Assembly: GCF_002887595.1 (NCBI RefSeq)
Contig: NZ_PEBU01000001.1
Location: 682,001 to 746,000, forward strand
Direction: 5' to 3'
Origin: Bowmanella denitrificans
GTDB lineage: Bacteria > Pseudomonadota > Gammaproteobacteria > Enterobacterales > Alteromonadaceae
DNA: 64,000 nt
Both the position numbers and the translations under genes were made by a program. Within the stretch, counting starts at the first letter, position 1. Each line of letters starts with the position of its first letter. Shown piece by piece: positions 51,398 to 55,218 of this stretch. The notes beneath the pieces were generated by a model, which saw nothing but the letters and a program-made list of their open reading frames with translations, was not told where the DNA came from and ran no database searches.

Positions 51398-52021
51398 GTG
51401 AGTCATTACAGCCACGCCAAATTTTTGTTAAGCGCCCCGGATATCCGGCATCTTGGCGATGACCAGGGCATTGAAGTCGCATTTGCGGGGCGTTCAAATG
51501 CAGGTAAATCCAGTGCCTTGAACCGCATTACCAGGCAAAAGGGGCTGGCGCGCACCAGTAAAACGCCCGGCCGCACGCAACTGATTAACGTATTTTCTCT
51601 GGACACGGAACGACGCCTGATCGATCTACCCGGATACGGTTTTGCTCAGGTGCCGGTGGAGATGAAAATAAAGTGGCAAAAGGCCTTAGGGGAATACCTC
51701 CAACAACGTAAAAGTCTGAAAGGACTGGTGGTCCTGATGGATATTCGTCATCCATTTAAAGATTTGGATCAGGAACTTATCCATTGGGCTGTGCAAAGTA
51801 AGTTACCCGTGCTGGCGTTGTTAACTAAAGCCGACAAGCTCAAGTCGGGGCAGCGTAAGGCCCAGTTATTAATGGCACGGGAAGCCAGTCTGGCCTTCTG
51901 TGGCGATGTTCAGGTGCATGCATTCTCTTCATTGAATGGATTTGGCTTGCCGGAAGTGGAGTCGATTTTGAATCAATGGTTTGGCCTTCCGGATAAACAA
52001 ACAGTACCGACACCAGCCTGA
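51398..52021 (+). CDS. engB: ribosome biogenesis GTP-binding protein EngB (YsxC/YihA)
   Basis: 207 residues from GTG 51398, with GGGAG six bases upstream. G1 [15 protein letters not shown]2 region [17 protein letters not shown]3 [10 protein letters not shown]4 LTKADKL and the EngB-typical [16 protein letters not shown] are present. Essential GTPase of 50S assembly. Convergent with the Spot 42 and polA region, as in E. coli. Confidence 0.96.
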
Positions 52022-52090: not shown

Positions 52091-52324
52091 AGACACAAAC
52101 TCAGGGACACACACATAAACCGTAAATTCAGACGCTGATGTTGCTGAAAAGTTCAGAAGAAAATCGATTTTTTATAAAAAAGTCTGGGTGTGCTTTTCTT
52201 AACGCTTTGTTGAAGGGGGCATCAAGGCTCCTGTTTCTCCATGAACCCAATACATACGACCGCCAGGGAGGGCGGAAGTGACGAAAACGCAGGGGCTGTT
52301 TTTCGTGCCGTTCATTCTGAACAT
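52091..52324 (-). other. region between two minus-strand terminators, possible small transcript or ORF
   Basis: This stretch lies after the Spot 42 terminator and before a second one. A 38-codon frame runs from ATG 52314 to TAA 52198 (begins MNGTKNSPCVFVTSALPGGR, has GRMYWVHGETGAL). No ribosome site precedes it, and I do not recognise the product. A second small RNA is the other possibility. Confidence 0.3.
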
Positions 52325-52397
52325 AAAAAAAGCCCCGGCAATGCCGGGGCCTAAAGCAAAGGTCTGAAAGATAGAACATCTTACCTCTGTACCCTAC
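52325..52397 (-). ncRNA. spf: Spot 42 small RNA (shortened form)
   Basis: On minus the RNA begins GTAGGGTACAGAGGTAAGAT at 52397 and continues GTTCTATCTTTCAGACCTTT, identical over its first 40 bases to E. coli Spot 42 as remembered. After GCTTTA it goes directly into a GGCCCCGGCATTGCCGGGGC terminator with seven T, giving 73 bases instead of about 109. The central segment used in some mRNA contacts is missing. Hfq-dependent regulator of carbon use in enteric bacteria. Position between polA and engB is conserved. Confidence 0.92.
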
Positions 52398-52404
52398 AGC
52401 TTGA

Positions 52405-52432
52405 ATAATAGCCATGTTCCGGATAAAAGCAA
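52405..52432 (-). promoter_or_regulatory. spf promoter
   Basis: On minus, -35 TTGCTT (52427-52432), 16-base spacer, -10 TATTAT (52405-52410), seven bases before the Spot 42 5' end at 52397. Confidence 0.75.
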
Positions 52433-52440
52433 GAGGTTTT

Positions 52441-52455
52441 TGTAATTAAATTACA
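52441..52455. promoter_or_regulatory. HexR-like operator upstream of spf
   Basis: TGTAATTAAATTACA is a palindrome except for its central base and matches the gammaproteobacterial HexR motif TGTAATwwwATTACA. It is -44 to -58 from the Spot 42 start and 8 bases upstream of the -35. A CRP site would need a 16-base TGTGA-N6-TCACA layout and is not seen. Confidence 0.6.
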
Positions 52456-52479: not shown

Positions 52480-55218
52480 CTAGTGTGCCTCATCCCAGTT
52501 GGCTCCTATGCCAGCTTCCACTACCAGAGGAACCGCCAGGGTTGCAGCATTTTCCATCAGGCTAATGATTTTTTGTCTATTTTCTTCCAGGTTTTGTTCT
52601 TTTATTTCAAATACCAGTTCGTCATGTACCTGCATAATCATCCGCACCTCTCCAACGGGGAGTTGGTCTATCCAGGCATCTACTGCCAACATGGCCTTTT
52701 TGATGACATCCGCCGCAGTTCCTTGCATGGGCGCATTAATAGCCGCTCTCTCAGCCCCTTTGCGACGGGCTGCATTGCTGGATTTGATTTCGGGCAGATA
52801 GAGGCGTCTGCCAAACACGGTGCTGACGTAACCCTGCTCTTTCGCTTGTTCTCTGGTGGTTTCCATATACTTCAATACGCCAGGGTAGCGCTCAAAATAC
52901 AAATCCATGTAACTCTGGGCTTCGCCTCGCGGAATATTCAACTGCTGAGACAAACCAAAAGCTGACATGCCATAAATCAGTCCGAAGTTGATGGCCTTAG
53001 CGCTGCGTCTTTGCTCGGCTGTTACTTCGTCCAGCTCCACCCCAAATACCTCGGCAGCCGTTGCCCGGTGAATATCTTTACCTTGTGAGAAGGCGCTCAG
53101 CAGACCTTTATCTGCAGACAGGTGGGCCATAATGCGCAGCTCTATCTGAGAGTAATCCGCTGCAACCACTTTATAGCCTGGTGAGGCAATAAAGGCCTGT
53201 CTGACCCGGCGACCTTCCTCGGTACGAATTGGAATATTCTGCAGATTAGGATCGGTAGATGACAATCTGCCAGTGGCTGCTACCGCCTGATGATAAGAAG
53301 TATGCACCCGGCCGGTTTTTGGGTTGATCATTTTGGGCAGTTTGTCGGTGTAAGTGTTTTTGAGCTTGGTCAGCCCCCGGTACTCCATCAAAAGCTTAGG
53401 CAGAGGATACTGATTGGCTAATACCTGCAGCACATCTTCAGAGGTCGATGGCACACCTTTGGGGGTTTTTTTAATCACCGGCAGGTTCATTTTCTCAAAT
53501 AGAATTTCCTGCAACTGCTTGGGGGACCCCAAGTTGAACTCTTGTCCGGCCTGCTCATGCACTTGCTTTTCAAGTTCCATAATGCGTACGGCCAGTTGCT
53601 GGCTTTGCTCGTTGAGCTTCTGGGCATCGATTAATACGCCTTGAACCTCCATCTTTGACAGCACGGTTGCCAGAGGGATCTCGATATCAGTGAGGACGGC
53701 ACAAAGATCTTGGTTTTGTTCCAGAGCCGGCCACATAGCCTGGTGCAACCGCAGCGTGATATCGGCATCTTCTGCGGCGTATTTAGCTGCCTGCTCCAGC
53801 GGAATTTGGTTAAAGGTTAGCTGTTTGGCTCCTTTACCAGCGATATCTTCAAAATGAATGGTTTGATGACCCAGATGGCGCTCAGCCAGGCTGTCCATAT
53901 CATGGCGACCGGCCACACTGTTACTTACGTAAGACTCCAGCATAGTGTCAAAGGCAATACCTTTGAGGTTTATACCATGGTTTGCCAGTACGTTTTTATC
54001 ATACTTAATATGTTGACCTACCTTGCGACACTGTTCATCTTCCAGCAGTGGCTTTAACTGCTGTAATACCCATTCCTTGTCCAGTTGCGCCGGTGCATCC
54101 ATATAGTCGTGGCCCACGGGCAGGTAGGCCGCCTGTCCAGGAGCGACGGCAAAGCAAAAGCCCACCAGTTGGGCCTGCATATAATCCAGACTGGTCGTCT
54201 CAGTATCCAGTGCAATCAGAGGAGCTGACTTTAACTTATCCAGCCACAGGTTGAAGTGTGCCTTATCCAGGATGGTTTCATAATCTTCTGTGCTAATCTC
54301 CGTTGCTACCTGCGTTTCTGGCAGGGCTTGGTCTTGTTCCTGGCCCAACTCTTCCAACCAGCGTTTAAATTCGAACTCGCTATACAAACTGGCCAGTCGT
54401 GGTTTATCTGGCGTGGTAGGCAGCAACTGTTCGGGACTAACAGCTAATTCGACATCAGTTTTTATTGTAGCCAGCTCGTAGGATAACCTGGCCTGTGTTT
54501 CATGCTCCTGCATCTTGATGGCCATGGTTTTGGCGCCCCGAAAGTCCAATTGCGCTATTTCATCGAGTCTGGCATAAATTTCCTCTATGCCACCCAAACC
54601 TTGTAGCATCGCCAGCGCGCTTTTGTCACCCACACCAGGTACACCGGGAATATTGTCAACTTTGTCGCCCTTCAGGGCCAATAGATCAATGATTAGATCT
54701 GGCGGTATACCAAACTTCTCGACGACGCCCTGGGGGTCCATCAGGGTATTGGTCATGGTGTTGATTAAGGTCACCTTATCGTCCACCAACTGGGCCATAT
54801 CTTTGTCACCAGTACTAATCAGCGTTGGAATGCCGACTGCACTGGCCTGTCGGGCCAATGTGCCGATAACATCATCGGCTTCGACTCCTTCAACTACCAG
54901 AATAGGCAGTCCCATCGCTTTGATAATTTCATGGATTGGCTCTATCTGCACTCTCAGGTCATCCGGCATCGGCGGGCGTTGAGCTTTATATTCTGGGTAG
55001 ATGTCATCCCTGAACGTTTTGCCTTTGGCATCAAATACCACAGCCATATGCGTGGGATGATATTGCTTGATTAGGCTGCGCAACATATTGATAACGCCGT
55101 AAACAGCATTAGTGGGTTGGCCCTTGGAGTTGGATAAATCACGTATGGCGTGAAAGGCTCGGAACAAATAAGAGGAACCATCTACTAGAATCAGAGGATA
55201 AGTGGGTTTTGTCGACAT
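52480..55218 (-). CDS. polA: DNA polymerase I
   Basis: 912 residues. 5' nuclease domain ([60 protein letters not shown]), 3'-5' exonuclease with [10 protein letters not shown] and the later DADITLR region, and polymerase motifs A ([17 protein letters not shown]), B ([20 protein letters not shown]) and C ([10 protein letters not shown]). The exonuclease acidic residues appear intact, as in E. coli. Role in Okazaki fragment maturation and repair. spf follows 83 bases later on the same strand. Confidence 0.98.

Follow-up and report, generated by a model that had tools for sequence, protein, structure and literature searches.

A predicted HexR-type operator upstream of the Spot 42 RNA gene spf in Bowmanella denitrificans and its relatives

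The spf locus

Spot 42, the product of spf, is a textbook example of a small RNA under the control of CRP. A copy of spf lies in the window, by which is meant the whole 64,000-nucleotide stretch of B. denitrificans DNA that was analysed, from a genome of 5.48 Mb in 39 contigs. The term family refers throughout to the f1 group (Bowmanella in the Alteromonadaceae), represented by 395 genomes drawn evenly from a larger number. Spf-bearing genomes were recognised by a match to the 5' sequence of spf with at most three mismatches. The promoters of all 74 such family genomes were read; they represent 13 genera and are related, so that counts among them are not independent. The other 321 gave no spf 5' match at this level, with which gene loss and divergence are both compatible. 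The features of the locus are:

51398..52021, plus strand: engB/yihA, convergent neighbour, named by protein sequence and synteny
52324..52397, minus strand: spf, short Spot 42 RNA of about 74 nt, from sequence and an Rfam match, start inferred from E. coli
52330..52352, minus strand: intrinsic terminator of spf, a 10-pair stem plus T tract, the stem found in the sequence
52405..52410, minus strand: candidate spf -10, TATTAT, at -13 to -8, with a 16-bp spacer
52427..52432, minus strand: candidate spf -35, TTGCTT, at -35 to -30, 3 of 6 to consensus
52441..52455, no strand: predicted HexR-type operator (proximal), TGTAATTAAATTACA, -58 to -44 of spf, from sequence, a matrix score of 24.5 of 24.5 and a position kept in 73 of 74 family genomes
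52480..55218, minus strand: polA, upstream neighbour in the same direction as spf, named by protein sequence and the E. coli polA-spf-yihA order

The first 40 nt of the window RNA are identical to those of E. coli K-12 spf, after which the sequence passes almost directly into the terminator; the +1 (G at 52397, minus strand) was placed by this likeness. The locus thus shares with Spot 42 of E. coli and A. salmonicida the conserved 5' sequence, the terminator and the synteny with polA and engB, and differs in length, the RNA being about 74 nt as against the 111 annotated in K-12. The Rfam model Spot_42 (RF00021) matches 52324-52407 of the minus strand with 52.9 bits (E 9.5e-10), which does not reach the gathering score of 80 because the window RNA lacks the middle of the model, and a scan of the full window at gathering scores missed spf. 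Among five loci examined that score was passed by E. coli K-12 only, the spf genes of the family loci L114, L087 and L135 and of the Budvicia locus L034 falling below it; sub-threshold Spot 42 genes of this kind may escape annotation. Likewise, a promoter scan with a 9-of-12 threshold left the spf hexamers unreported because they agree with the consensus in only 8 positions out of 12; the TTG at -35 to -33 is well conserved among family spf promoters. The window RNA (52324-52397) retains the opening residues, MFYLSDL, of SpfP, a small protein of E. coli, with no stop codon before the terminator. Two genomes of the same genus, G001 and G004, have spf regions that are identical over 185 nt with the regions of B. 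dokdonensis (L055) and B. yangjiangensis (L037).

A palindrome abutting the spf promoter

The 15-mer TGTAATTAAATTACA occupies 52441-52455 exactly, 8 bp above the spf -35, upstream in the polA-spf gap with the polA stop 24 bp above it. The sequence-only reading had reported a HexR-type palindrome at just this place, -44 to -58 and immediately upstream of the -35, and its coordinates were confirmed, with the +1 inferred from E. coli. Letter for letter, the 15-mer is the HexR motif predicted for V. parahaemolyticus (excerpt of PMC11906056), and it matches exactly the 15-bp pseudo-palindrome TGTARTNNNAYTACA by which a HexR operator was defined.

A matrix was trained on the hexR-flanking sites of 30 family genomes and three sites from the B. 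denitrificans genome itself, which together gave 11 distinct 15-mers; spf sites were excluded. The matrix thus owes nothing to spf, but it does depend on the HexR consensus, resemblance to which was the basis on which the training sites were chosen. It finds a single site of at least 11 bits in the window, the spf palindrome, at its maximum score of 24.5. When three mismatches are allowed, two rows are returned from the window, both of them the spf palindrome, against 2.72 expected in shuffles, so that the signal comes from the exactness of the match, from where it lies and from its conservation, and not from any excess of such matches. Under a first-order Markov model TGTARTWWWAYTACA is expected at 0.14 places per 5.48 Mb and 1.6e-6 per 60 bp, and the exact 15-mer, on either strand, 0.017 times per genome.

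HexR and HexR-type sites elsewhere in the genome

The window genome encodes HexR (model NF008451, 540.8 bits, cut-off 296) in a cluster with zwf, pgl, edd, eda and pykA, in which the ORF between edd and eda is presumably glk. It has four matches to the RpiR helix-turn-helix, HexR included, and the closest relative of HexR that it encodes is 31% identical. A HexR orthologue of at least 77% identity is found in all 74 spf-bearing family genomes, and RpiR paralogues of 38-39% identity in part of them. Genome G023, with an apparent internal stop in hexR and a weak spf site, was considered as a natural hexR knock-out and rejected, the stop being the end of a slightly shorter protein; G535 and G465 were flagged for a hexR internal stop like that of G023.

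The motif lies on both sides of hexR in the window genome. Among 30 of the 74 family hexR loci, exact TGTARTWWWAYTACA occurs in the low-coordinate flank of 29, and the other flank has TGTARTWWWAYTACA with at most one mismatch in all 30, the flanks being unsorted as to zwf or pykA side. The slightly narrower pattern TGTARTTWWAYTACA has seven exact places in the 5.48-Mb genome. One is at spf; two are in the hexR-zwf gap and upstream of pykA; one falls in the pgm-glgP gap; one is upstream of ppc and another next to a small ORF close to ppc; the last precedes an ORF for a 140-aa secreted protein. With at most one mismatch it is found 12 times on the forward and 11 times on the reverse strand of the whole genome, where the reversed control pattern gives 5 matches on each.

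Several of these places deserve mention in their own right. The sites at G000:C2:232385, C2:388951 and C2:389400 are those of the pgm-glgP gap, of ppc and of the small ORF, whose product we take to be a carbohydrate-binding (CBM48-like) protein; together they suggest that the HexR regulon of Bowmanella includes genes of glycogen metabolism and PEP carboxylation. A further perfect palindrome of HexR type, at G000:C9:239518-239532 (L017:4019-4033), stands about 160 bp above the 140-aa ORF, with degenerate copies nearby.

Conservation within the family

When the region from -75 to -30 was searched, the best matrix match was found to start at -57 to -60 in 73 of the 74 family promoters. The sequence-only reading had asked whether the palindrome is conserved at spf in relatives and whether the genome carries hexR, and both are borne out. 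The remaining promoter, L138 (genome G134), has its best match at -70 (18.3 bits) and a second at -57 (13.8 bits); these are tandem, overlapping sites of HexR type that together cover 28 bp, from -70 to -43. The median score of the 74 sites is 23.0 of 24.5, 65 of them reach at least 15 bits, and the lowest stands at 7.0; mononucleotide shuffles of the same segments reach 15 bits in 0.18% of cases. The nine sites below 15 bits include those of all six genomes of genus g42 (7.0-13.5). In the family alignment on the site the arms carry 1.16-2.0 bits per position and the eight leftmost positions 0.0-0.46; this profile replaces an un-aligned one, the argument from which was dropped, its register being blurred by 1-2 bp. 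In the downstream control region, 10 bits are reached in only one of the 74 family promoters and none of 64 others from the order.

A scan of GTDB returned 41 contigs on which the palindrome stands 28-58 nt upstream of spf, from genera that include Rheinheimera, Arsukibacterium, Bowmanella and Planctobacterium, together with five Budvicia-group species. The promoters of the Budvicia group were recovered by their proximal palindrome, so that their proximal scores are no test of it. Leminorella was looked up and belongs to the Budviciaceae; the family placement of the other members of the group is assumed.

The element outside the family

The draw from the order comprised 257 genomes, with the spf 5' sequence in 67, of which 64 lie outside the family. 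In 63 of these 64 promoters the best match starts at -58 to -60 and is a degenerate dyad, usually of the form TGAAA-N5-WTACA, in which G at position 2 is retained in 63 of the 64 promoters, as is C at position 14, and positions 6-11 carry 0.2-0.95 bits, with the register chosen by the matrix within eight positions. The median score is 11.6 bits, with at least 6 bits in 51 promoters, 10 in 34 and 15 in 3, and shuffles of these segments reach 10 bits in 1.5% of cases. Genome G423, whose spf match has three mismatches, showed no element (-12.1 bits) and was counted as a miss; L212 has its best match at the expected place, yet at -7.8 bits.

A hexR match at 1e-60 was obtained in 63 of the 64 non-family genomes; the spf-bearing enteric genome G411 has none at this level and keeps a degenerate element (9.4 bits). 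The flanks of hexR at 30 loci from the 63 matching genomes gave no match with at most one mismatch in 19 cases, which weakens any order-wide reading.

Where the window has its near-consensus palindrome, E. coli K-12 spf has TGAAAAAAAATTACA, at -59 to -45, which scores 14.6 bits. The same sequence is the putative HexR site of V. parahaemolyticus pgi, whose promoter is responsive to hexR (excerpt of PMC11906056). The best match upstream of K-12 zwf, the candidate zwf operator TGTAATTTTCTTACG, scores 11.7 bits, and since the spf element outscores it, HexR (YebK) of E. coli would, on an order-wide reading, be expected to bind at spf. According to the available part of PMC8464067, yebK is among the E. 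coli regulators that have been screened.

A second, distal palindrome

A second HexR-like site of at least 10 bits, typically GGTAATTWAATTACC, is present at -106 to -108 in 47 of the 74 family promoters, 48-50 bp above the proximal one; 10 of the 74 reach 18 bits and the rest of the 47 lie at 10-12. In the window, polA ends at -82 and leaves no intergenic room for such a site. Among the enteric promoters scored, 10 of 11 have a second palindrome 63-65 bp away, and a distal site at -122 to -134 occurs in all five Budvicia-group promoters and in 6 of 15 f18 promoters; K-12 has a faint one only, CGTAAGTAAGCAACA. This second palindrome is the reason why the upstream control region (-200 to -76) is unclean, with 47 of 74 family promoters reaching 10 bits there. 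In the order set, at least 15 bits are attained by 6 of 64 promoters in the upstream control as against 3 of 64 at the proximal place.

CRP, adenylate cyclase and the enteric CRP site

The best CRP match in the window genome scores 62.1 bits against a cut-off of 266, and none over the cut-off was found in 69 of the 74 spf-bearing family genomes. The other five, from genera g33 and g44, encode a relative that exceeds the cut-off, at 278-288 bits; CRP was found in all six order genomes tested, at 391-409 bits. Class I adenylate cyclase reaches at least 478 bits in 15 of 15 order genomes, and no full-length enzyme at that level was found in any of 25 family genomes tested; in 12 of the 25 there is a relative that is shorter, with an open frame of 634-685 aa and a score of 160-206 bits, and in 13 there is none. 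The CRP-bearing g33 and g44 genomes keep strong sites, none of them being among the 14 lowest scorers, so that the strength of the site does not simply track the loss of CRP.

Enteric spf is repressed by CRP, and the published E. coli spf site is TTTTGTGATGGCTATTAGAAAT (excerpt of PMC3295665). In K-12 this lies at -95 to -74, apart from the element at the HexR position. TGTGA at -100 to -84 was found in K-12, in all five Budvicia-group promoters, where it sits between the two HexR-like sites, in 11 of 15 f18 promoters (each time at -92) and in 1 of 17 from f21; it was found in none of 32 from f25, f9, f10, f20 and f6 together and in none of the 74 family promoters. Neither a CRP gene over the cut-off nor a CRP site at spf, which together would mark a CRP-controlled promoter, is seen in the window genome.

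The sequence-only reading had proposed a switch from CRP to HexR that would tie spf to flux through the Entner-Doudoroff (ED) route. The tie to ED flux gains in plausibility from the fit to a HexR matrix built without spf sites, from the presence of hexR and the ED genes, and from conservation. The notion of a switch, as put, is not supported: the CRP site and the HexR-like element are separate in E. coli, and the dyad is also present in the order's other spf families, except in the one f6 genome. Its distribution fits a HexR-type element that either predates the enteric CRP site or is unconnected with it, and the situation is better described as a HexR-type element that extends across the order and is at its strongest in this family, where CRP is for the most part absent.

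Likely mode of action and alternatives

Taken together, the sequence comparisons make it very probable that HexR, the KDPG sensor of the RpiR family, has an operator in the palindrome, which would place spf in the HexR regulon of this lineage and mean that Spot 42 is here probably wired to a sensor other than CRP. HexR of Pseudomonas binds DNA as the apo form and responds to KDPG (excerpt of PMC5489143). Ligand-free HexR would bind at -58 to -44 of spf, centred near -51; KDPG, arising from sugars by the ED route, would release it; and the level of Spot 42 would then track ED flux instead of cAMP, whichever the sign.

Given binding, activation of spf by apo-HexR is to be slightly preferred, since the site adjoins the -35 on its upstream side with a spacing that hardly varies; at pykA in the same genome the site is placed differently, starting 3 nt after a -10-like hexamer. 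It is the reported view that HexR sites above a promoter activate and those below it repress, and the glgX and pgi reporters of V. parahaemolyticus agree (excerpt of PMC11906056). The preference is only slight because the known induction of Spot 42 by glucose fits repression better. HexR might instead cover the A/T-rich region above the -35 and exclude the alpha subunit of RNA polymerase, so that relief by KDPG would raise Spot 42 on sugar; this is a serious possibility, if the less probable one. The usual UP-element region does extend over about -58 to -44, and the second palindrome of 47 of 74 family and 10 of 11 enteric promoters would suit cooperative repression. Glucose induces Spot 42 in E. 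coli, and likewise in A. salmonicida, where spf has only weak CRP-like sites (excerpt of PMC3295665). Besides the reported view, a distance to +1 that varies by at most 3 bp in 73 of 74 promoters speaks against repression.

Could the site be no more than the A/T-rich UP element that a strong promoter for a small RNA would have, its palindromic form incidental? It is A/T-rich, in the right place and followed by runs of A, and its left half outside the family is usually TGAAA. This is nevertheless unlikely, because an UP element would hardly account for two conserved arms around a looser centre (even outside the family, where G2 and C14 persist against 0.2-0.95 bits at positions 6-11), for a score of 15 bits in 65 of 74 real segments but 0.18% of shuffled ones, or for the same sequence flanking hexR. 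A reading of the site by another RpiR regulator seems more doubtful still. RccR of Pseudomonas is a related protein that likewise senses KDPG and has 15-bp sites with similar half-sites (TGTAGT/ACTACA), though with a different regulon (aceEF and the glyoxylate shunt) (excerpt of PMC5489143). The four RpiR-type matches in the window genome leave room for such a regulator; against it, HexR at 77% or more is universal among the 74 genomes, and no paralogue of at least 38% identity occurs in every one. That the palindrome is a displaced CRP site, a thought prompted by the CRP repression of enteric spf, was rejected with near certainty. The site has 15 bp where TGTGA-N6-TCACA has 16, the CRP site of E. 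coli occupies another place, TGTGA is absent at -100 to -84 from all 74 family promoters and CRP is missing over the cut-off in 69 of these genomes.

Relation to the HexR regulon and to Spot 42 control

As an operator for HexR, the spf palindrome would join a regulon known from Shewanella, Vibrio and other gammaproteobacteria, with which Bowmanella shares the motif, the hexR-zwf-pgl-edd-eda-pykA cluster with the same sites, and further sites beside pgm, glgP and ppc. It differs in that the targets named in the available parts of PMC5343134 and PMC11906056 are protein genes, whereas here the target is a small-RNA gene; reconstructions that start from annotated proteins would not list one. Searches of an open-licence library yielded no published link between HexR and Spot 42, in agreement with the sequence-only reading, which knew of none, and no report of spf expression in a hexR deletion. 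To be counted against the HexR reading is the case of Neisseria, in which knock-out of hexR left the glucose-controlled small RNA Bns1 unchanged (excerpt of PMC4423775).

It is tempting to suggest, tentatively and as something a little short of an even case, that control of Spot 42 by HexR is an ancestral trait shared across the order: in promoters of E. coli and Vibrio type the element at -59 would be a weakened HexR operator, control by CRP an enteric addition placed between two HexR-type sites, and Spot 42 a KDPG-controlled RNA in lineages without cAMP-CRP. If HexR does act at spf, a small RNA is added to the HexR regulon, and a HexR input is predicted at E. coli spf also. In this family Spot 42 has been kept, together with a conserved operator of the type read by a KDPG-responsive regulator, where CRP is mostly undetected, which would mean that an RNA of carbon control can come under a different flux sensor.
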